From a virus, in the IMG/VR virus record IMGVR_UViG_3300020020_000124, positions 1 to 30,778 of that record: a stretch of 30,778 nucleotides of DNA. The stretch is one strand, 5' to 3'. The first letter of the stretch is position 1; every line of letters starts with the position of its first letter. The notes below the pieces were generated by a model. It worked only from the letters and a program-made list of their open reading frames with translations, ran no database searches and was not told the origin of the DNA. Positions 10,975 through 30,778 of the stretch are shown piece after piece. The translations under genes and the position numbers were made by a program.

Positions 10975-11177
10975 TAGCCCACAATCACATAAAGCGTGGT
11001 GGAAACCACCGGATCGAGCGCGTCGTATTCAACTTGCGTCAGTTTGACGATCTTGCTGATGTCGGCGCTTGTCGGTGCGTAGTGGTTGGCGCCGGTCGCA
11101 AGATCGCGCACGAGCAAGTCATTGTCGGGCGAGAGGCCGAGGTGAGAACCGCTGACGGTCTTCAGCATCTCAGGCAT
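10974..11177 (-). CDS. Short tail-fibre-like protein
   Basis: A 67-residue protein ending KLTQVEYDALDPVVSTTLYVIVG. The pattern 'LTQxEYDAL...TLYVIV' is a recurrent C-terminal motif of phage fibre or baseplate proteins, so this may be a fibre tip subunit or a detached module. Starts after the stop of the upstream gene and its stop overlaps the next ATG. Confidence 0.6.
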   Translation of the reverse strand: MPEMLKTVSGSHLGLSPDNDLLVRDLATGANHYAPTSADISKIVKLTQVEYDALDPVVSTTLYVIVG

Positions 11178-11722
11178 CAGAGCAGATCCAGTTCAAACTG
11201 CTTGAGGATCGCCGTGTTGTTGGCGTTCGAGGCGCTGAAGATCCCCGTGATGAGGAACACGAGAGACGGCGCCGTGGTCACGCTCGCGGACAACCCCGCG
11301 GTCAGCGTCGCCCAGGTCGTGAATGTGGTGTCTATGTTGTAGGCGAACGCGCCGTTCATGCGCGCCGTCGTCACATCCCACCACAGCCGGGCCTGAATGT
11401 TGATGAGGCGCGTCACGCTGTTCACCGCCATTGCGGTCGGCGTCATGATCGCGATGTCGTTGGTGAACGTGGTCAGGTTCGAGTTGCCGCCCACGTTGGC
11501 ACGGATCGCCGCCGTATAGTTCGTGGTGGTGCCGCCCGTGGCAAGGATGCTCGCACGCAGCAGCATCTCGCGCCCGTCGAGCGCCCCGTTCGAGAAGCCC
11601 GCCGGAACGCCCACGGTTGCGCGCACGGTGTTGGCGGGCGCAAGGCCGAACGCAGTCTCGGCGACGACGTTGCCGCTCGCCGAGACGGCCGCAACGCCCG
11701 CGATGGTGTTGGCGTTTGCCAT
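11177..11722 (-). CDS. Virion/tail protein, Ala/Thr-rich
   Basis: A 181-residue protein starting MANANTIAGVAAVSASGNVV. The frame is open further upstream, but ATG 11722 overlaps the previous stop (TAATG), which sets the start. The composition (Ala, Thr, Asn, Val; RLINIQARLWWDVTTARMNG; FTTWATLTAGLSASVTT) is beta-rich and typical of structural proteins. No named family recognised; a tail or fibre component by location. Confidence 0.55.
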   Translation of the reverse strand: MANANTIAGVAAVSASGNVVAETAFGLAPANTVRATVGVPAGFSNGALDGREMLLRASILATGGTTTNYTAAIRANVGGNSNLTTFTNDIAIMTPTAMAVNSVTRLINIQARLWWDVTTARMNGAFAYNIDTTFTTWATLTAGLSASVTTAPSLVFLITGIFSASNANNTAILKQFELDLL

Positions 11723-12342
11723 TAGACCGGAATCTCTTCCCAGATCATGTGCGCAGCCACAGAGAAGGCGCTGAGCGCCGAGAGCGAAACAACGGTCCCC
11801 TGCCCCAGAATGATCTGCCCGTCGATCGGGATGTAGACGAGTGGCGGGATGCCGGTGGTTGCCGTCGCCGAGACGGAGGGCTGCCACAGATTCATGATCG
11901 CCGCCGGCGCGGCAGGCAGCGTGGCGGCCGAGTCAGCAAGCCCGACGCTGGTGCCGGAGCCTCCGAGCAGCGCGTTGCGCACCGTCAGTGGCGTGGTGTG
12001 CACGACTGCAGCGGCCACGGGATTGACGTTGGCGGCGAGTTGGATACCCGCGTTCGCTGTGGTCGTCGCCGTCGATGTCTGAATGAGGCCAATGCCGAGC
12101 AGAACGAGCAGTTTGCCGCTCGCCGCCGGGTTGGTGAGGCAGAACCCGGTGCACGTGGCACTCAGGTTCGAGAGGGCGGCGCCCGCCTGGTTGGCTGCGA
12201 GCCACACGTTGCCGCGGTAGACGGCTTCCTGATAGCGCGCGTGAGCGTGCACGATGCGCTGCGCGCCGTCATTGCTCGCCGTAAACGGAACGGGGGCGCC
12301 GAGCGAGCCGAGAAGCGGCCCGCGGATTTGTAGGTCAGACAT
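11722..12342 (-). CDS. Conserved tail-region structural protein
   Basis: A 206-residue protein. The segment ARYQEAVYRGNVWLAANQAG, followed by LSATCTGFCLTNPAASGKLL, is a pattern I associate with structural proteins found beside fibre genes in podoviruses of alphaproteobacteria. It is beta-rich and ends with a hydrophobic AFSVAAHMIWEEIPV tail. Function not assigned. Confidence 0.55.
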   Translation of the reverse strand: MSDLQIRGPLLGSLGAPVPFTASNDGAQRIVHAHARYQEAVYRGNVWLAANQAGAALSNLSATCTGFCLTNPAASGKLLVLLGIGLIQTSTATTTANAGIQLAANVNPVAAAVVHTTPLTVRNALLGGSGTSVGLADSAATLPAAPAAIMNLWQPSVSATATTGIPPLVYIPIDGQIILGQGTVVSLSALSAFSVAAHMIWEEIPV

Positions 12343-12345
12343 GGA

Positions 12346-12633
12346 TCACCAAGGGGATTTGGAGGACCAGGACGAGCCTTCCCAACCGGAAGGACCGGCG
12401 AATAAGTTCACAGTCTCGGACGTCGGGCTCGTGTCGACGCGCAACCGGCCGTCAGATGTCGAAGTCAGGGCACCCGTGGTGCCATCGAAGCTCTGCGGGC
12501 CGATCAGCGCCGCGGTGAGAAATCCATAGTCATTCGCCGCCTCGAGCAGCCCGAGTTGATTGCTCTGGATGAGCACCCCGTGGCGACCATCGGAGGTGTA
12601 GAGCCGCCCGCCGGTAACGTGGATCTCAGGCAT
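12346..12633 (-). CDS. Small structural protein
   Basis: A 95-residue protein with Gly/Ser/Thr-rich turns (GGRLYTSDGRHGVLIQSNQ, DGTTGALTSTSDGRLRV) ending in a Ser/Trp-rich tail. Four bases separate it from the upstream and downstream neighbours in the tail cluster. No family recognised; probably part of the fibre or adhesin assembly. Confidence 0.5.
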   Translation of the reverse strand: MPEIHVTGGRLYTSDGRHGVLIQSNQLGLLEAANDYGFLTAALIGPQSFDGTTGALTSTSDGRLRVDTSPTSETVNLFAGPSGWEGSSWSSKSPW

Positions 12634-12637
12634 CGGA

Positions 12638-13063
12638 TTACCCGCCGAGCAGCATCTGGCCGGTCAGGTCTTCCGGCTGCCAGCCAAGAACGACAACGCT
12701 GACGTCGTTCACGTAGACCTTGGTGTCGATCTGCCCGTCGCCGTTGAAGTCCCCGGCCTCGACCGACCCGACCCCGCCGCTATACGTCGCCCAAGCCATG
12801 CCGTCCGACAGCGGACCGATGAACGCCGCATACAGCGGGGTGTCATAACTGAACACCATCACATCGGTGGCGGGATCAAAGTCGATGATCGTGTCGTTGC
12901 CGCCGCCGGTGCTAAACACGAACACGTCAGAGCCTGCACCGCCGGTCAGAATGTCGTCACCGCCGTGGCCCCAAAGGAAATCGTTCCCCTTGCCGCCACT
13001 GATGACATCGTCCTCGCCCTGCCCGTGCAGCGAATCGTTCTTGCCAGTACCCTTGATATTCAT
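12638..13063 (-). CDS. RTX-repeat calcium-binding protein
   Basis: A 141-residue protein whose first ~55 residues are RTX (haemolysin-type) nonapeptide repeats: NDSLHGQGEDD, GGKGNDFLW, GGDDILTGGAGSDVFVF, with the Gly-Gly-x-Gly-x-Asp pattern that folds into a calcium-loaded beta roll. A canonical EF-hand-like loop DFNGDGQID occurs near residue 105. No signal peptide. In bacteria these repeats are in secreted proteins; here the gene is between TerS and tail genes (ATGA overlap with terS), so a virion adhesin or folding module for a fibre is the likeliest reading. Calcium would be needed to fold it. Confidence 0.75.
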   Translation of the reverse strand: MNIKGTGKNDSLHGQGEDDVISGGKGNDFLWGHGGDDILTGGAGSDVFVFSTGGGNDTIIDFDPATDVMVFSYDTPLYAAFIGPLSDGMAWATYSGGVGSVEAGDFNGDGQIDTKVYVNDVSVVVLGWQPEDLTGQMLLGG

Positions 13064-13500
13064 TCGGATTGCGCCTTTGCTTGCTTGGCGAACAGGAACG
13101 CTATCCGACGCACGGTGTCGGCCTCGTTGATGGTGGTGACGTCGACCGCGCCGGAGTGTTCGACCTTCTCGGTAAACATGCCGTCGAGTTTGAGCAGATC
13201 GACCGTGGCGGCACGCACGACGCTGAGCAGGTTCGTCGGCACGCCGCGCATGGTCCCGTCGCCCAGATCCATGAGCGCGATGTCCTCGAGGCGCTTGGCG
13301 GCGCGCACGGCGCGGTCGCCGGCCTCTTCGGAGCGCACGGCCTGCTTGGCCGCAATCGCAGCCTTGATATGTGGCTTAGCAAGCAAGGCCGACGCCTGAA
13401 TTCTCGCCGTCCTCTTGCTGTAGCCCGCGCGGATCGCCGCGTTGGTGGCGTGCGCGTCGATCAGGTACTCGTCGACGAAGCGCTGCTGCTGCAGGTTCAC
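13060..13500 (-). CDS. terS: Terminase small subunit
   Basis: A 146-residue protein with the terminase_2-type N-terminus: QQQRFVDEYLIDAHATNAAIRAGYSKRTARIQASALLAKPHIKAAI (residues ~4-50), a helix-turn-helix that recognises packaging sites and recruits TerL. The middle has EDIALMDLGDGT, usual in this family. Starts at GTG 13500, which overlaps the stop of the small membrane gene (GTGA). It is unusually far from terL: eight tail-region genes and a moron lie between. Confidence 0.88.
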   Translation of the reverse strand: MNLQQQRFVDEYLIDAHATNAAIRAGYSKRTARIQASALLAKPHIKAAIAAKQAVRSEEAGDRAVRAAKRLEDIALMDLGDGTMRGVPTNLLSVVRAATVDLLKLDGMFTEKVEHSGAVDVTTINEADTVRRIAFLFAKQAKAQSE

Positions 13501-24925: not shown

Positions 24926-25611
24926 TGTCAGCGCTCCCAAAAGAAATCTCCGACTTCATGGCCAAGTTTTCCGTCGGATTCGATGAGGTGTGGAAAATCC
25001 CGCAGGGCAACGCCTATGCGGTGAAGCACAAGGCGCTGGAGCGCGTCGCCTCGACGTTGGGCGTCAAGTTCGATCATCCGACCGTGGTGCAAAGCGACCT
25101 TGGCAACAAGACCGTCGGCCTCGTGGTGTTCGCCAGCTTGGGCGACCGGCTGGAATGGGCGACTGGCGAGGCTGCGCCCTACAACAACAAAAACCAATAC
25201 CCGCTGGCGATGGCTGAGAAGCGCGCAAAGGATCGCGTTATCCTCAAACTGCTACAGGCGCACGGCGCACTCTATTCCGAGGACGAGGCGGACGACTTCA
25301 AGCGCCCGAACCCTCATGTCACGCGCCCCGCGGATATTGTCCCCGATATCGAATACGACGAACAGGGTCAGCCGGTAGACAACATTCCGAACGGCGATCC
25401 CGGCATTGACCAGCTTCCGAAGGCGAAGGCGAGGGCCGATTTCGAGGCCGCGCAAAAGGAAATGCGGGCCACCGAGACCATCAAGCAGTTGCAGAGTTGG
25501 GGCGAGCGGAACGCAAATCGCGTCGCGTCATTCCCGAACGACTGGCAGGCGATCTTTCGCGGCCTCTACATCGAGCACAGAGATGCGCTGCGCGAGAGGG
25601 TCGCCGCATGA
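24925..25611 (+). CDS. Probable single-strand annealing (recombination) protein
   Basis: A 228-residue protein. GNAYAVKHKALERVASTLGV (about 24-43), then GDRLEWATGEAAPYNNKNQY, then MAEKRAKDRVILKLLQAHG and YSEDEADDF. This set is very common in phage early operons beside ninB-type genes; the combination of a Lys/Arg-rich 'AEKRAKDRV' helix with a 'W-TGEA' strand recalls Rad52/Erf-like annealing proteins. That assignment is tentative. Start at ATG 24925 set by the TGATG overlap. The C-terminal ~80 residues are an acidic linker and a helical end. Confidence 0.5.
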   Translation: MSALPKEISDFMAKFSVGFDEVWKIPQGNAYAVKHKALERVASTLGVKFDHPTVVQSDLGNKTVGLVVFASLGDRLEWATGEAAPYNNKNQYPLAMAEKRAKDRVILKLLQAHGALYSEDEADDFKRPNPHVTRPADIVPDIEYDEQGQPVDNIPNGDPGIDQLPKAKARADFEAAQKEMRATETIKQLQSWGERNANRVASFPNDWQAIFRGLYIEHRDALRERVAA

Positions 25612-26018
25612 GCCGCGAAATATGGAAACCCATACCCTCTGCGCCGGGATGGGAAGCTTCCAGTATTGGCCGCGTGAGAAAGCTTGCTGGGCCGCAAAGA
25701 ATGCCCAATGGCGGAACGCGGTCCGGACAATCCGTGCCACCAACCTTTGGTTACCAAGACCCAAAGAGTCAACGGCACAGACAATCAGTCAATAACGGGA
25801 AACGCCTAGTAGCAAATCTCATTTGCGAGACATTTCACGGTCCACGCCCGAGCCCGTCGCATCAATGCATGCATCTTGATGAGACAAGAACCAACAATGC
25901 GGCAGCAAACTTAGCGTGGGGGACAAAGATCGAAAACCACAACGCTCCCAAGTTTCTTGCAAACTGTCGGGAGCGAATGCTGCGAATTTGGAAGGAAAGA
26001 AAATGTCTCGGCATTTGA
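25608..26018 (+). CDS. HNH homing endonuclease with NUMOD4 domain
   Basis: A 136-residue protein. N-terminal NUMOD4: EIWKPIPSAPGWEASSIGRVRKL (about 3-25). C-terminal HNH: HQCMHLDETRTNNAAANLAWGTKIEN (about 86-111), with His, Asn and 'NLxWGT' as in free-standing phage homing enzymes. It starts in an ATGA overlap with the annealing-protein gene and overlaps ninB by 16 bases. Its base composition is visibly richer in A+T than its neighbours, so it is probably a recent insertion in the operon that kept coupling intact. Confidence 0.88.
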   Translation: MSREIWKPIPSAPGWEASSIGRVRKLAGPQRMPNGGTRSGQSVPPTFGYQDPKSQRHRQSVNNGKRLVANLICETFHGPRPSPSHQCMHLDETRTNNAAANLAWGTKIENHNAPKFLANCRERMLRIWKERKCLGI

Positions 26019-27082: not shown

Positions 27083-27323
27083 GTGTCCGCGCGCCAACTC
27101 GTGGTTCCGGTCATGTCGGTTTGAGGCACGGTACGAAACGCTTGCCGATGCCAAGTTCGTGACCCCGGAGATCGTCGCCGCCCTATCTGAGGGGATGGTT
27201 TTTGCCGACGAGATCAACACGGCAATCAGAACGCTCACAAAAAGCGAGGTCTACGTTCGGGACGTTTGTGTCCTCTGCGGGCGCTCAATCGAACGCGCCG
27301 CCCTCGCGGACCCGCCCGCATGA
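27075..27323 (+). CDS. Hypothetical small Cys-rich protein
   Basis: An 82-residue protein. CPRANSWFRSCRFEARYET near the N-terminus and VRDVCVLCGRSIERA near the end (CxxC) suggest a small zinc site. Overlaps both neighbours by a few bases. No family recognised. Confidence 0.55.
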   Translation: MGECPRANSWFRSCRFEARYETLADAKFVTPEIVAALSEGMVFADEINTAIRTLTKSEVYVRDVCVLCGRSIERAALADPPA

Positions 27324-27508
27324 GTGCGCACCCCGCAGACGCATATCGCGAAGGCTTCCGTGCTCACCAATGCGAGGAGCCAATCGAGGCCAACCCGTAC
27401 CGCAAGCCATCCGAGGATTGGTCCCGCTGGGCCGAAGGGTGGCTAGAGGCTGATCGACACGAAGGCGATAAGGCCGACGCCTTGGCCTCGGTTGGGTGGT
27501 TCGGATGA
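27320..27508 (+). CDS. Rmf/CrpP-like small protein
   Basis: A 62-residue protein. AYREGFRAHQCEEPIEANPYRKPSEDWSRWAEGWLEADRHEG has the order 'A-x-x-GF-A ... NPY ... W--GW' of the ribosome modulation factor / CrpP superfamily. In bacteria Rmf dimerises ribosomes; CrpP-type phage proteins have been linked to other activities. A phage copy could touch translation, but the target is unknown. ATGA overlaps on both sides. Confidence 0.6.
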   Translation: MSAHPADAYREGFRAHQCEEPIEANPYRKPSEDWSRWAEGWLEADRHEGDKADALASVGWFG

Positions 27509-27540
27509 GCGCGTTAAACATCCATAAAGGCGGCGAGTGA
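27505..27540 (+). CDS. Micro-ORF, junction family (MSALNIHKGGE)
   Basis: Eleven codons, starting in an ATGA overlap and ending in TGATG with the next gene. The same kind of peptide, (M)-(T/S/A)-A-L-...-K-G-G-(E/D), recurs at later junctions (28569, 29576, 29909). AAAGGCGG in its body serves as the ribosome site of the next gene, so its likely role is to re-initiate translation. The peptide itself may be irrelevant. Confidence 0.55.
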   Translation: MSALNIHKGGE

Positions 27541-27893
27541 TGCCGGTGAACGTACCCGACAACGAGATCATGTTGCGCTGCGCTTGCGGGCATTCAGACC
27601 ACACTGCCTTTTTGATCCACGAGCCCGACGACACGCGCGGCAACAATCTCAAGGGCGAGCATGACGATTGGTATCTGTCCGTGAGGCTGGATCACTTCCA
27701 CATCTGGAAACGTCTCCGCATGGCGCTCCGCTATGCGTTTGCGCCGCACACCATCACCTATGGAACGACTGCCGAACTCGTCCTGCGCAGCGAGGATGTG
27801 GACAAGCTATGCGAGTTTATCGTGACGCGGAGATTACCGGGGGCACTGATCGAGGCGGCCGAGCGCCGCGATATACGGGAGCAAACGCGGTGA
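27540..27893 (+). CDS. Hypothetical protein ending REQTR
   Basis: A 117-residue protein, MPVNVPDNEIMLRCACGHSD..., with CACGH as a possible zinc knuckle, and YLSVRLDHFHIWKRLRMALRYAF. ATG 27540 overlaps the micro-ORF stop; a GTG one codon before is possible. The last codons come from the 19-bp junction repeat, so its REQTR end is shared with two other genes. Confidence 0.6.
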   Translation: MPVNVPDNEIMLRCACGHSDHTAFLIHEPDDTRGNNLKGEHDDWYLSVRLDHFHIWKRLRMALRYAFAPHTITYGTTAELVLRSEDVDKLCEFIVTRRLPGALIEAAERRDIREQTR

Positions 27894-27993
27894 CTAATTC
27901 GGATGGGGTGACGCACCACAGTAATGTTGGCTTGCAAATGGGATTGGGACAGGCACGTAAGACCCAACCCGACTCCGAGGTAGCGTGTCCTAC
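27875..27993 (+). repeat. 119-bp direct repeat, copy 1
   Basis: Identical over 119 bp to 30660-30778 at the right edge of the window. It starts with ACGGGAGCAAACGCGGTGA (19 bp) and covers most of the 48-codon frame at 27890. The 19-bp part occurs a third time at 28018-28036, so 27875-28017 is a 143-bp unit flanked by 19-bp direct repeats. Confidence 0.9.
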
Positions 27994-28036
27994 GCTCGGC
28001 ACCCCTACTTCTTTTGAACGGGAGCAAACGCGGTGA
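27890..28036 (+). CDS. Small ORF inside the repeated unit
   Basis: Forty-eight codons from GTG 27890, VTNSDGVTHHSNVGLQMGLG..., ending FEREQTR*. GGGAG lies before the GTG and the start overlaps the previous stop (GTGA). Both ends are defined by the 19-bp repeats, so the frame is exactly one repeat unit (147 nt). No family recognised. It could be a genuine gene or just the spacer in a tandem duplication. Confidence 0.4.
   Translation: MTNSDGVTHHSNVGLQMGLGQARKTQPDSEVACPTLGTPTSFEREQTR
28018..28036 (+). repeat. Third copy of the 19-bp junction repeat
   Basis: ACGGGAGCAAACGCGGTGA, identical to 27875-27893 and 30660-30678. It supplies a gene's last codons (REQTR*), the GGGAG ribosome site and the GTG start of the next gene in one unit. 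A degenerate copy, ACGGGAGACAACGAGGTGA, is at 28234-28252. Confidence 0.85.
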
Positions 28037-28251
28037 GCGAGAACCCTCCAGTCCCCTTTCGGCCGACCGCAGCCCATTGGTTGGGTGACCGCGACGCCGC
28101 CGACGAAACAAGGCACGCCGCCGATAGACGCGGCGTCGTCCTGTATTTCTACGACGAGGCTGCTTGCAGGGATTTCCTTGCGTGGCTCACTCAGGTCAAC
28201 GCTCCGGTGACGGCCGCGCTGTCCACATCTACACGGGAGACAACGAGGTGA
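28033..28251 (+). CDS. Hypothetical protein ending in a junction tail
   Basis: A 72-residue protein, (GTG)SENPPVPFRPTAAHWLGDRD..., with GVVLYFYDEAACRDFLAWL in the middle. Its last residues, VTAALSTSTRETTR, resemble the micro-ORF family (MTALST...) followed by a degenerate REQTR end, so the C-terminus seems replaced by junction sequence. GTG start preceded by GGGAG. No family recognised. Confidence 0.6.
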   Translation: MSENPPVPFRPTAAHWLGDRDAADETRHAADRRGVVLYFYDEAACRDFLAWLTQVNAPVTAALSTSTRETTR

Positions 28252-28257
28252 GAGATC

Positions 28258-28434
28258 ATGGTTATGGATGATGCCGCAGATGAAATCGCGCGACTGAAGC
28301 GCGAGATCGAGCGACAAAATACGATGATCCTGGAATTGACGGAAGATCGCGAGATAAAGAACAGCCAGATCGCTGAGTTTCGAGAGCGTGTCGCCGCGCT
28401 TATCACATCTGAAGGCGGTGACGGGGATAACTGA
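28258..28434 (+). CDS. Coiled-coil small protein
   Basis: A 58-residue protein, MVMDDAADEIARLKREIERQNTMILELTEDREIKN...: a clear heptad pattern of Ile/Leu for residues ~9-45. The C-terminus, VAALITSEGGDGDN, again resembles the junction family. GAGGTGAGAG precedes the ATG. The stop overlaps the next ATG (TGATG). Confidence 0.6.
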   Translation: MVMDDAADEIARLKREIERQNTMILELTEDREIKNSQIAEFRERVAALITSEGGDGDN

Positions 28435-28565
28435 TGAGAACATTCTTTCGACGGTGGTACGGCGACCGATGTCCGTATTGGACATGGCCGCTAACGGTTG
28501 GGGCGCCGCTTATTGCCCTATCTTTTTGGCAAATGGCTAGGGCACTCGACATGGCGTGTAGGTGA
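28434..28565 (+). CDS. Tiny membrane protein (43 residues)
   Basis: MRTFFRRWYGDRCPYWTWPLTVGAPLIALSFWQMARALDMACR: a basic N-terminus, then one membrane helix (about 19-38). Start in TGATG overlap. Its AGGTGAG end provides the ribosome site of the micro-ORF at 28569. Confidence 0.55.
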   Translation: MRTFFRRWYGDRCPYWTWPLTVGAPLIALSFWQMARALDMACR

Positions 28566-28568
28566 GCG

Positions 28569-28622
28569 ATGACCGCACTAAGCACGAACAACGTTCCCAC
28601 ATCTAAACGCGGTGAGACGTGA
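28569..28622 (+). CDS. Micro-ORF, junction family (MTALSTNNVPTSKRGET)
   Basis: Seventeen codons. The stop at 28620-28622 overlaps the GTG of the cytosine methylase (GTGA) and precedes the ATG of the overlapping frame by a base. AAACGCGGTGAG inside resembles the 19-bp repeat end. Likely a re-initiation leader for the methylase gene. Confidence 0.5.
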   Translation: MTALSTNNVPTSKRGET

Positions 28623-29614
28623 ATGTCCTCGACCTCTTCAGCGGGATCGGCGGGTTCAGCCTCGGGCTCGAGCGGGCCGGAATGCGAACCGTCGCGTTCT
28701 GTGAGGTCAAACCGTTCGCCAGACGCGTCCTTGCTGAGCGATGGCCGCACGTTCCCTGCTACCCCGACGTTAGAGGGCTCACCGCCAATCGGCTCCGGGC
28801 AGATGGAATTACTGCCGATGTCATCTGCGGCGGGTTTCCATGCCAGGACATCAGCTCGGCCGGCCGGGGTGCTGGAATTGATGGCACGCGCAGCGGCCTC
28901 TGGGCAGAGTACGCCAGACTTATTGGCGAACTTCGACCCCGCTACGTCATCGTGGAGAACGTCGCAGCGCTGCTTGGTCGGGGGCTTGGCCGAGTTCTCG
29001 GAGATTTGGCCGCGCTCCGGTACGATGCGGAGTGGGACTGCGTACCAGCGTCCGCCATTGGCGCTCGCCACCGACGCGACCGTATCTGGATTGTGGGCTA
29101 CCCCGGTTGCGCAACCAGCGGGCGGCACCCCGGAACGCTTCCTCGATCGCAAGAGGGAGAGCGTGGCGCGCGGCCACAGCATGGGGATTTCGCTGACCGA
29201 CTTGAGTTTGCAAGTCCAGGCAGCGGAGCGGGGCCTTTGGCCGACGCCAACCAGTCAGGACAACGATCAGGTTGCGGGCCGAGGAGCAGCGGCGGGACAC
29301 AAGAAGCGCGGAACGACCTTGGGTGGCGCGGTTCGGATGTGGCCGACGCCGAACGCGGGCGACTTCAAGGCGGGCATATCGAACGCGCCTGGGCGCCAGC
29401 AATCATCCCTGCCGCGATCGGTTGGCATTGCCGAGGGGGCGAGCTCGGGGAAGCGTGGCGGGTTGAACCCGACGTGGGTCGAATGGCTTATGGGGTTCCC
29501 GATGGGCTGGACCGAATTGAAGGTCTCGGCAACGCCGTCGTCCCGCAAATCCCGGAAATCATCGGGCGGGCAATCATGACCGCGCTTAGCACGAATAAAG
29601 GAGGCGAAACATGA
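28619..29614 (+). CDS. C5-cytosine DNA methyltransferase
   Basis: A 331-residue enzyme with ordered C5-MTase motifs: I DLFSGIGGFSLGLERAG (5-21, SAM binding), IV GGFPCQDIS (71-79, catalytic Cys75), VI ENV (113-115), VIII-like GARHRRDRIW (148-157), X GLGNAVVPQ (302-310). The target-recognition stretch between VIII and X contains repeats LADANQSG and VADAERGR. It likely protects phage DNA against restriction, as no restriction enzyme is near. GTG start overlaps a micro-ORF stop. The last 12 residues (MTALSTNKGGET) are themselves a junction-family micro-ORF fused in frame. Almost the entire gene overlaps another long frame. Confidence 0.92.
   Translation: MNVLDLFSGIGGFSLGLERAGMRTVAFCEVKPFARRVLAERWPHVPCYPDVRGLTANRLRADGITADVICGGFPCQDISSAGRGAGIDGTRSGLWAEYARLIGELRPRYVIVENVAALLGRGLGRVLGDLAALRYDAEWDCVPASAIGARHRRDRIWIVGYPGCATSGRHPGTLPRSQEGERGARPQHGDFADRLEFASPGSGAGPLADANQSGQRSGCGPRSSGGTQEARNDLGWRGSDVADAERGRLQGGHIERAWAPAIIPAAIGWHCRGGELGEAWRVEPDVGRMAYGVPDGLDRIEGLGNAVVPQIPEIIGRAIMTALSTNKGGET
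28623..29579 (+). CDS. Overlapping frame inside the methylase gene
   Basis: A 318-codon frame from ATG 28623, +1 relative to the methylase. It resembles a widespread phage protein I recognise from its motifs: WRTSQRCL (111-118), WPRSGTMRSGTAYQRPPL (129-146), SGLWATP (155-161), GLWPTPTSQD (204-213), RMWPTPNAGDFKAG (238-251) and LNPTWVEWLMGFPMGWTEL (281-299). LWATP and WPTPT correspond to the other frame's IWIVGYP and LADAN, and the WVEWLMGFP tail is opposite GRMAYGVPD/GLGNAVVP. Its stop overlaps the micro-ORF ATG (ATGA). Function unknown. It could be a real second product or a by-product of a strongly conserved methylase; long and start-stop-coupled, it is more than chance. Confidence 0.5.
   Translation: MSSTSSAGSAGSASGSSGPECEPSRSVRSNRSPDASLLSDGRTFPATPTLEGSPPIGSGQMELLPMSSAAGFHARTSARPAGVLELMARAAASGQSTPDLLANFDPATSSWRTSQRCLVGGLAEFSEIWPRSGTMRSGTAYQRPPLALATDATVSGLWATPVAQPAGGTPERFLDRKRESVARGHSMGISLTDLSLQVQAAERGLWPTPTSQDNDQVAGRGAAAGHKKRGTTLGGAVRMWPTPNAGDFKAGISNAPGRQQSSLPRSVGIAEGASSGKRGGLNPTWVEWLMGFPMGWTELKVSATPSSRKSRKSSGGQS
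29576..29614 (+). CDS. Micro-ORF, junction family (MTALSTNKGGET), fused to methylase
   Basis: ATG 29576 overlaps the stop of the overlapping frame (ATGA); the 12 codons are in frame with, and end, the methylase. AAAGGAGGC inside is a full ribosome site for the gene at 29611, which overlaps by four bases. Confidence 0.45.
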   Translation: MTALSTNKGGET

Positions 29615-29811
29615 AGCCAGATGAGATCGATACTATTGTGGACCTGATCCGCACGGTGGATCGCGATAAAGCCATCCACCTGTTCGCCACCTATATCAAG
29701 ACAGCGAAAATTCAAGGCTGGCTGGATGGGTCACAGTCGGCGAGCAAAACCTTTGATGACGTAATGGACCGCGAACGACTGACACACACACCGACCAAAG
29801 GAGCCGCCTAA
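29611..29811 (+). CDS. Hypothetical small protein
   Basis: A 66-residue protein, MKPDEIDTIVDLIRTVDRDK..., helical and charged, ending HTPTKGAA. AAAGGAGG precedes the ATG. The stop overlaps the next ATG (TAATG). No family recognised. Confidence 0.6.
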   Translation: MKPDEIDTIVDLIRTVDRDKAIHLFATYIKTAKIQGWLDGSQSASKTFDDVMDRERLTHTPTKGAA

Positions 29812-29921
29812 TGACACTCGGGGAAATAGGAGGGCTCGCATTCCTTGGCGTGTGCGCGCTGGCAATGCTGATCGCCATCGTTCGTTTCCTCCCCGGCGAT
29901 GTAACCCGATGGCCGCGCTAA
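29811..29921 (+). CDS. Tiny membrane protein (36 residues)
   Basis: MTLGEIGGLAFLGVCALAMLIAIVRFLPGDVTRWPR: one transmembrane helix with a basic end. AAAGGAG lies before the ATG. A micro-ORF begins inside its last codons. Confidence 0.6.
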   Translation: MTLGEIGGLAFLGVCALAMLIAIVRFLPGDVTRWPR

Positions 29922-29947
29922 CATCCCATAAGTCCGGTGACGCATGA
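29909..29947 (+). CDS. Micro-ORF, junction family (MAALTSHKSGDA)
   Basis: Twelve codons overlapping the end of the membrane peptide and ending in an ATGA overlap with the next gene. Fourth member of the family with stand-alone or in-frame start. Confidence 0.45.
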   Translation: MAALTSHKSGDA

Positions 29948-30150
29948 CTGAAACAATCCGCATGGGCTTCGCCGGGTTTCAAGACGGCACATTTGAATTG
30001 ATCCTTGTGAACCCAAGGACGGGCAAGGAAACCATGCTCTGCGGTCAGCTTAAGCCCGGTCAACTGGCAGTTGTGGATGCCATTCTGCCTACGTGTGTGT
30101 TCATCACAGTTGAGCCCGCCGCACTATCCGCAGATAAGGGGGCTGACTGA
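29944..30150 (+). CDS. Hypothetical small protein
   Basis: A 68-residue protein, MTETIRMGFAGFQDGTFELI..., beta-rich (FELILVNPRTGKETMLCGQL, CVFITVEPA). Overlaps at both ends (ATGA, TGATG). No family recognised. Confidence 0.6.
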   Translation: MTETIRMGFAGFQDGTFELILVNPRTGKETMLCGQLKPGQLAVVDAILPTCVFITVEPAALSADKGAD

Positions 30151-30272
30151 TGACCGAATCTGCCGTGGAGCGCCTCTGCGCTCTTAAATCGCTGGCGTCT
30201 TTTCCACGCTTGGCTAAGGAGAGTCGCGTTCTCCCGGCAGCGCTTCCCACGGGAGACCGCGCCGATGGCTGA
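30150..30272 (+). CDS. Hypothetical small protein
   Basis: Forty residues, MTESAVERLCALKSLASFPR..., coupled to its upstream neighbour (TGATG) and overlapping the next ATG by eight bases. No family recognised. Confidence 0.45.
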   Translation: MTESAVERLCALKSLASFPRLAKESRVLPAALPTGDRADG

Positions 30273-30678
30273 CATAGTAGAGCGGCTGCGCGAAAACGCC
30301 GCTAGGTTTCATCCCAAGGACTTTCTGCATGAGGCCGCCGACGAGATCGAGCGGCTGCGCCGTGATTGTGCCGAACTTTATCAGGTTATAGGCAATATGG
30401 CCGAGCACTGCCCTGACCCGGAAGACCCGGCCATCATCAAGGCTCTCGACAACGCCAGCGACGCGGCAAATGCCGACCCACGGCGTCACGATGATCTGTT
30501 GCCGTTTATTCTTCCCGCCCCATTGCACATCCATAAGGGCGGCGACGTTCGCGACGCCTTCCTTCGGCACAAAGAGCAGCATCCAGAGCCAACGAAGGAA
30601 GAGGACATGTCGCCGCTGCAACGCAGAATGCAGTCCGAAGGAATGCCGAAGCGCATTAAACGGGAGCAAACGCGGTGA
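30265..30678 (+). CDS. Hypothetical helical protein ending REQTR
   Basis: A 137-residue protein. ADIVERLRENAARFHPKDFLHEAADEIERLRRDCAEL is a typical phage 'ead/Ea22-like' helical N-terminus (IVERLR...AADEIERLR). Residues ~86-95 include LHIHKGGDV, matching the micro-ORF family in frame, so it appears to have absorbed a junction sequence. It ends with KREQTR from the 19-bp repeat. Confidence 0.6.
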   Translation: MADIVERLRENAARFHPKDFLHEAADEIERLRRDCAELYQVIGNMAEHCPDPEDPAIIKALDNASDAANADPRRHDDLLPFILPAPLHIHKGGDVRDAFLRHKEQHPEPTKEEDMSPLQRRMQSEGMPKRIKREQTR

Positions 30679-30778
30679 CTAATTCGGATGGGGTGACGCA
30701 CCACAGTAATGTTGGCTTGCAAATGGGATTGGGACAGGCACGTAAGACCCAACCCGACTCCGAGGTAGCGTGTCCTAC
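30660..30778 (+). repeat. 119-bp direct repeat, copy 2 (window end)
   Basis: Identical to 27875-27993; the window ends inside it. It begins another copy of the VTNSDG frame from GTG 30675. Because the sequence ends with the repeat, either a real duplication or an assembly break at a repeat is possible. Confidence 0.85.
30675..30778 (+). CDS. Second copy of the VTNSDG frame (partial)
   Basis: GTG start overlapping the stop of the preceding gene, same sequence as 27890 onward, cut by the window end after 34 complete codons. Same caveat as the repeat it lies in. Confidence 0.35.
   Translation, partial: MTNSDGVTHHSNVGLQMGLGQARKTQPDSEVACP

Follow-up and report, generated by a model that had tools for sequence, protein, structure and literature searches.

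Related C-terminal tails carrying ribosome sites recur at gene junctions in a phage accessory region

At its right-hand end (27.5–30.7 kb) the viral contig IMGVR_UViG_3300020020_000124 (30,778 bases from IMG/VR; this whole stretch is called the window) carries a rightward accessory region in which about a dozen related sequences stand at gene junctions. Each of these elements, or linkers, spans the final 8–16 codons of an open reading frame (ORF) together with its stop codon and the ribosome site used by the gene that follows. There are two main types, A[AST]L…K[RG]GE and …KRE[QT]TR tails. At three junctions (27505, 28569 and 29909) the element is a micro-ORF that has no gene body. The elements are probably conserved C-terminal tails, each with a Shine–Dalgarno sequence, that persisted through deletion, insertion or exchange of the gene bodies. 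Shared DNA between the junctions had been claimed in a preliminary description of this stretch; the elements are indeed homologous at the DNA level, across junctions and across phages, and have strong Shine–Dalgarno sites.

Coding tails at the gene junctions

All seven boundary sequences listed in the preliminary description are present, with starts placed exactly at 27505, 28213, 28393, 28569, 29576, 29909 and 30520. Recurring types that it had not listed are the REQTR/RETTR sequences at 27875, 28018, 28233 and 30660 and the AAL tails at 30118 and 30237 (Table 1). The overlap of stop and start that it gave for each element is present at most junctions, where the ORFs overlap or abut and the Shine–Dalgarno sequence lies inside the upstream ORF; the exception is the 28251/28258 junction, at which the usable ATG comes after a 6-nt gap. 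The KGG codons, said to double as the next ribosome site, do so at some junctions, while 28619 and 29944 use GGTGA and the REQTR type uses GGGAG.

In the junction elements the Shine–Dalgarno sequence is placed upstream of the gene start, and the mean ribosome-site energy of the linkers is -8.1 kcal/mol, against -4.5 kcal/mol at 1,137 other junctions. An xAL motif is found 7–19 residues ahead of the stop in 83 of 1,968 small genes (4.2%) from other phage loci; among the 16 correctly framed entries of the window, 8 have it, including three micro-ORFs.

Repeated sequences just before gene starts, confined to the non-structural region, recall the start-associated sequences of cluster K mycobacteriophages (PMC3203893), and the elements could on this basis be operators or RNA signals whose coding content is incidental. 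We regard such a regulatory origin as improbable. The compared copies retain both reading frame and stop; the core upstream of the ribosome site codes for the same peptide, the sole internal alignment gap being of whole codons; and the six elements tested by RNA folding fold no better than shuffled sequences.

Table 1. Junction elements and associated features of the window
Position	Strand	Feature	Remarks
27505-27540	+	Micro-ORF MSALNIHKGGE, body-less ALNIHK-type tail	ATG overlaps stop of ORF 27320-27508 (ATGA); own stop overlaps GTG at 27537
27875-27893	+	REQTR-type tail ACGGGAGCAAACGCGGTGA of ORF 27537-27893	Forms left edge of the 119-base exact repeat shared with contig end
27894-28036	+	143-base module; ORF 27890-28036, 48 residues, ending FEREQTR	REQTR linkers on both sides; first 100 bases repeated at contig end
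28018-28036	+	REQTR-type tail ACGGGAGCAAACGCGGTGA of the 48-residue ORF	
28213-28251	+	Chimeric tail AALSTSTRETTR (AALSTST+RETTR) of ORF 28033-28251	RETTR variant at 28233
28393-28434	+	Tail AALITSEGGDGDN of AADEIARL gene 28258-28434	TGATG overlap with next ORF
28569-28622	+	Chimeric micro-ORF MTALSTNNVPTSKRGET	GTGA overlap with methylase start
28620-29579	+	Methylase cassette (C-5 cytosine methylase, ORF 28619-29614)	Homologous to L146-phage methylase; ends exactly at two linkers
29576-29614	+	Tail MTALSTNKGGET in frame with methylase	Shine–Dalgarno AAAGGAGG; ATGA overlap with ORF 29611; L146-phage methylase has SSMRQ here
29909-29947	+	Micro-ORF MAALTSHKSGDA	ATGA overlap with ORF 29944; resembles L146 RRAALSSHKRGKNEQ, junction score 13
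30118-30150	+	AAL tail AALSADKGAD of ORF 29944-30150	
30237-30272	+	Probable divergent AAL tail AALPTGDRADG of ORF 30150-30272	
30520-30549	+	Internal in-frame remnant PLHIHKGGDV in AADEIERLR gene 30265-30678	
30652-30678	+	RIKREQTR tail of ORF 30265-30678	ACGGGAGCAAACGCGGTGA at 30660; 25/27 bases as in L146 micro-ORF MSRIKRETTR
30660-30778	+	Exact 119-base repeat of 27875-27993 (second copy)	Runs off contig end

Homologous linkers in a second phage

A scan of 2.9 million viral contigs with the ALSTNKGGE pattern gave a single match, in a locus (L146) taken from the whole record G029, and a separate scan with the unrelated REQTR/RETTR pattern reached the same single contig. The patterns were specific, and diverged relatives would escape them. 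The idea of a widespread portable element was not borne out: wherever linker patterns matched among these contigs they reached just one other phage, and they were not in excess in host-group genomes, of which 392 and 397 were searched. The exact ATGACYGCNCTNAGCACGAA and ALNIHKGGE patterns had no match, and comparison of the linkers with 50,697 phage records gave no convincing one. In bacterial genomes the general pattern had nine matches, not more than the reversed control; one of them, L163, has a tail-like layout and precedes a non-phage gene.

The L146 phage carries a run of junctions, ...VDAALNIHKRGEE, MSRIKRETTR (a micro-ORF), ...RAALSTSKRGEAGE, ...SAALCTNKGGETE and ...RRAALSSHKRGKNEQ, immediately before a recombinase-like ORF. 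This ORF (reverse strand, 11554-13302, 582 residues, assigned by eye) lies after the linker run and before the methylase, so placed that the linkers adjoin a possible integration module. When the window was compared with L146 by blastn, the top matches apart from the methylase were linker tails, at 25/27, 22/23 and 20/20 bases and 36 columns at 86%, and a 28-base AADEIERLR stretch; weaker matches below these were at chance level. The perfect match is at 28597-28616 in the 28569 linker, 17 of the 18 bases at 27510-27527 in the MSALNIHKGGE micro-ORF are those of the L146 VDAALNIHKRGEE tail, and the 28393 junction scores 22–23 against the L146 junction at 10998.

The similarity survived a check on codon use. 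In seven window/L146 pairs, which reuse one L146 tail three times and are not fully independent, the same codon is used at 38 of 50 aligned residues where 18.8 would be expected, indicating homologous DNA and not a shared peptide alone. Among 48-nt junctions, 12 of 136 window/L146 pairs score at least 15, as do 14 of 6000 pairs drawn at random from the junctions of other phage loci (an approximately forty-fold excess), several of these 14 being evident homologs that score 44–48. Chance is excluded as the source of the likeness.

Convergence, in which an Ala/Leu-rich helix end, a Shine–Dalgarno sequence read as KGG or RGG and a stop/start overlap arise together without common descent, is very improbable and already contradicted by these data. 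Look-alikes do form by chance, such as AALTSSKGGDGS, which has an ATGA overlap and stands before a periplasmic binding protein-like gene in a bacterial genome, and within-locus junctions of other phages also outscore between-locus pairs. Against this stand synonymous codon agreement at twice expectation, the base matches of 20/20 and 25/27, the excess of high-scoring junction pairs and the finding of nine matches in 392 bacterial genomes, a number not above that of the reversed-pattern control.

What lies between the linkers is different. The portal of the window is absent from the whole L146 record, and the only window ORFs related to that record at E<=1e-3 are the methylase and the primosomal-type ORF, the latter through a fragment of 31% identity; the methylase is the only shared cargo gene. 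Apart from the methylase and the AADEIERLR genes, bodies between matched linkers have local scores near the shuffled background. Matching linkers thus enclose different genes in the two phages, as had been anticipated in the proposal that gene content would vary while the linkers are kept.

The methylases of the two phages are 79–88% identical over the blocks alignable as DNA, and their homology runs from 28620, at the stop codon that closes the upstream linker micro-ORF, to 29579, at the ATGA that opens the downstream linker. Ten-base blocks have 9–10 identities inside the cassette and fall to background beyond both edges; this is one gene in one comparison. The two flanking linkers (28569 and 29576) match one another at 20 of 23 bases, and the L146 methylase gene ends ...GRAIMSSMRQ, without a linker.

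As a separate observation, two frames of more than 310 codons are open through the methylase region, at 28619-29614 and 28623-29579. In the L146 phage, too, both frames (C-5 methylase and +1) are open; the +1 frame matches PHROG 1008 'DNA methyltransferase' and ends LNPTWVEWLMGFP...GGQS, and in Catdawg-type mycobacteriophages the corresponding stretch carries two annotated methylase genes. The region looks like a case of conserved dual coding.

The exception among the bodies, the AADEIERLR genes, suggests where one tail type comes from. A 108-residue L146 gene ending AALNIHKRGEE resembles window ORFs 30265-30678 and 28258-28434 (z 8–9), and in the closest relative by early protein (locus L064) a gene of similar appearance, judged by eye, ends ALNIHLGDGK. 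Because ALNIHK tails terminate full-length AADEIERLR-like genes in both loci, the micro-ORF MSALNIHKGGE is best read as the tail of such a coiled-coil gene without its body, and PLHIHKGGDV within 30265-30678 as the same tail overrun by in-frame fusion. The micro-ORF ATG is not part of the unit, since the same tails terminate full-length genes in L146; and in place of a linker built for joining, gene tails left behind are the better fit, the ALNIHK type being how an AADEIERLR coiled-coil gene naturally ends.

Chimeric linkers and the exchange of gene bodies

Two window linkers are chimeric. The front of the 28213-28251 linker matches that of the AALSTSKRGE tail of L146 (22/23 bases) and its back matches that of the L146 micro-ORF MSRIKRETTR, while the linker at 28569-28622 has the front of the 29576 linker and the back of the L146 STSKRGE tail. 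The linker types fused in these two chimeras stand apart in L146. They are the best, though indirect, evidence for past exchange inside the joints, and give some substance to the earlier suggestion that the linkers serve as short homology for swapping; chimeras are what exchange within linkers would be expected to leave, while swapping itself we only infer.

The last 119 bases of the contig are an exact copy of 27875-27993, and the left edge of the copy falls exactly at the REQTR linker. The repeat may mean that a small module occurs twice, the second time after another REQTR tail, or that the population carries a tandem repeat of 2.8 kb. The module itself (27894-28036) is bounded on both sides by identical 19-base linkers, and its region had no match in annotated phages among the 50,697 phage records. 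The 118-residue protein of ORF 27537-27893, which precedes it, had no relative among the viral contigs.

These features suggest a scheme in which a small family of related tails, in one fixed reading frame, came to be repeated along one operon. As the next gene's ribosome site lies in each tail, which in most cases also overlaps the start of that gene, the tail would be kept when its own body is lost or replaced; deletion or replacement of a body would be tolerated only with the tail retained, to judge from its position and the strength of the ribosome site. Loss of a body would leave a micro-ORF, as at 27505, 28569 and 29909, and insertion or exchange would put a new body before an old tail, as with the methylase (28620-29579). 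The repeated tails would offer 20–27 bases of homology, and crossing-over inside them could join unrelated genes with translation unbroken. The two chimeric tails, the cassette edges and the 119-base repeat that starts exactly at a tail are consistent with such crossing-over. It is from this pattern that we infer recombination through the tails, the direction of the events and coupling as a selected trait. We advance more tentatively the further view that the stable inherited units are translational joints (tail, stop and ribosome site), their order kept across phages, and that bodies are interchangeable cargo, traded through homology within these joints.

The five L146 linkers have window counterparts whose order is almost unchanged; 2 of 120 permutations are as good. 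This near collinearity, like the coincidence of tails with ribosome sites, is also what descent from a common ancestral operon would give, with bodies replaced by illegitimate events anywhere and tails kept for their ribosome sites, never acting as crossover homology; illegitimate recombination is the usual account of phage mosaicism without boundary sequence (PMC3029335). We consider purely vertical inheritance of the tails rather unlikely, in view of the two tails that are chimeric between types separate elsewhere, and of a methylase homology that stops exactly at tails on both sides, the tails themselves being closely matched.

Several points weigh against retention of tails with exchange of bodies. 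The evidence from linker order is weak (p about 0.017), no more than suggestive, and the best window copy of the RETTR linker is, by one point, the out-of-order one at 30652. The set is present in one other phage only, and therefore gives no phylogeny of events; L064 and L065, the closest relatives by early protein, differ in their junctions save for one ALNIH tail. What reads as a second genomic copy at the contig end may instead be an assembly branch. Conserved translational coupling, moreover, is assumed. In Escherichia coli, coupling does not depend mainly on reinitiation by unrecycled ribosomes (PMC7538156), and therefore local unfolding or direct initiation may suffice.

Related systems and genomic context

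Short conserved sequences at gene boundaries of lambdoid phages have been proposed as homology for module exchange, a likeness to the linkers described here; the window boundaries differ in being in-frame coding sequence with a stop codon and ribosome site. The boundary-sequence mechanism is cited in PMC3029335, which also describes the closest precedent for the window linkers. In mycobacteriophage Island3 the last 18 residues of the products of two neighbouring genes, gp67 and gp68, match in protein and DNA, a likeness explained by recombination between tails of about 50 bp that adds or removes a gene (PMC3029335). Here too the C-terminal tails of non-homologous genes match at the DNA level and gene content changes exactly at shared tails (the methylase at 28620 and 29579, in one comparison). 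Island3 presents one pair in one phage, whereas the window has about a dozen tails, micro-ORFs, chimeras and a near-collinear second phage.

Two further systems are functional analogues, with differing defining features. The start-associated sequences (SAS/ESAS) of cluster K mycobacteriophages are a well-conserved 13-bp repeat, and roughly half of the copies have inverted repeats (PMC3203893). Like the linkers they are repeated short sequences with a Shine–Dalgarno core just before the starts of different genes of the non-structural half, but the window elements are coding, exceed them in length, vary in sequence and fall into two main types. The 13-bp repeat GGGATAGGAGCCC is absent from the window elements read and aligned, whose consensus is different and variable. 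The PeSLs of T4, according to the account of Arbiol 2010 given in PMC4503421, are units of promoter and stem-loop (terminator) that stand as repeated expression signals between hypervariable early genes and mediate gene shuffling. The window elements differ in being translational junctions without a special fold (in the six compared with shuffles), and they are coding and overlap or nearly abut the neighbouring ORFs.

Mosaic boundaries in phages usually have no explanatory sequence, hence the assumption of illegitimate recombination. In the present case a boundary sequence can be seen; it is coding, repeated and chimeric, and two phages share it, which makes tail-guided exchange testable. Micro-ORFs in phage accessory regions would be explained as body-less tails, and there is a warning that like C-terminal tails in phage proteins need not imply related proteins.

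The window is from a soil-type bacterial virus. Its head-tail adaptor/portal distantly resembles those of Pelagibacter podoviruses, and it also encodes a CI-like repressor, a terminase small subunit, a DNA polymerase exonuclease-like protein and NinB. A host in the Hyphomicrobiales is likely, since the closest cellular relatives of an early protein are from a Bradyrhizobiaceae metagenome-assembled genome and Ancylobacter, and the phage appears to be a temperate podovirus of a host of that type. Portal-based relatives comprised 60 loci; apart from G027, no NinB match was found in the 28 portal-relative records searched, and the early regions were therefore not alignable. L064 and L065, relatives by the 239-residue early protein, have upstream genes in common with the window and no DNA similarity in the accessory region. 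At the matching place neither has an endonuclease ORF, by eye, L065 going directly into a NinB-like gene; in the window an HNH/NUMOD4 homing-type endonuclease ORF (25608-26018) stands between the 239-residue early gene and NinB.

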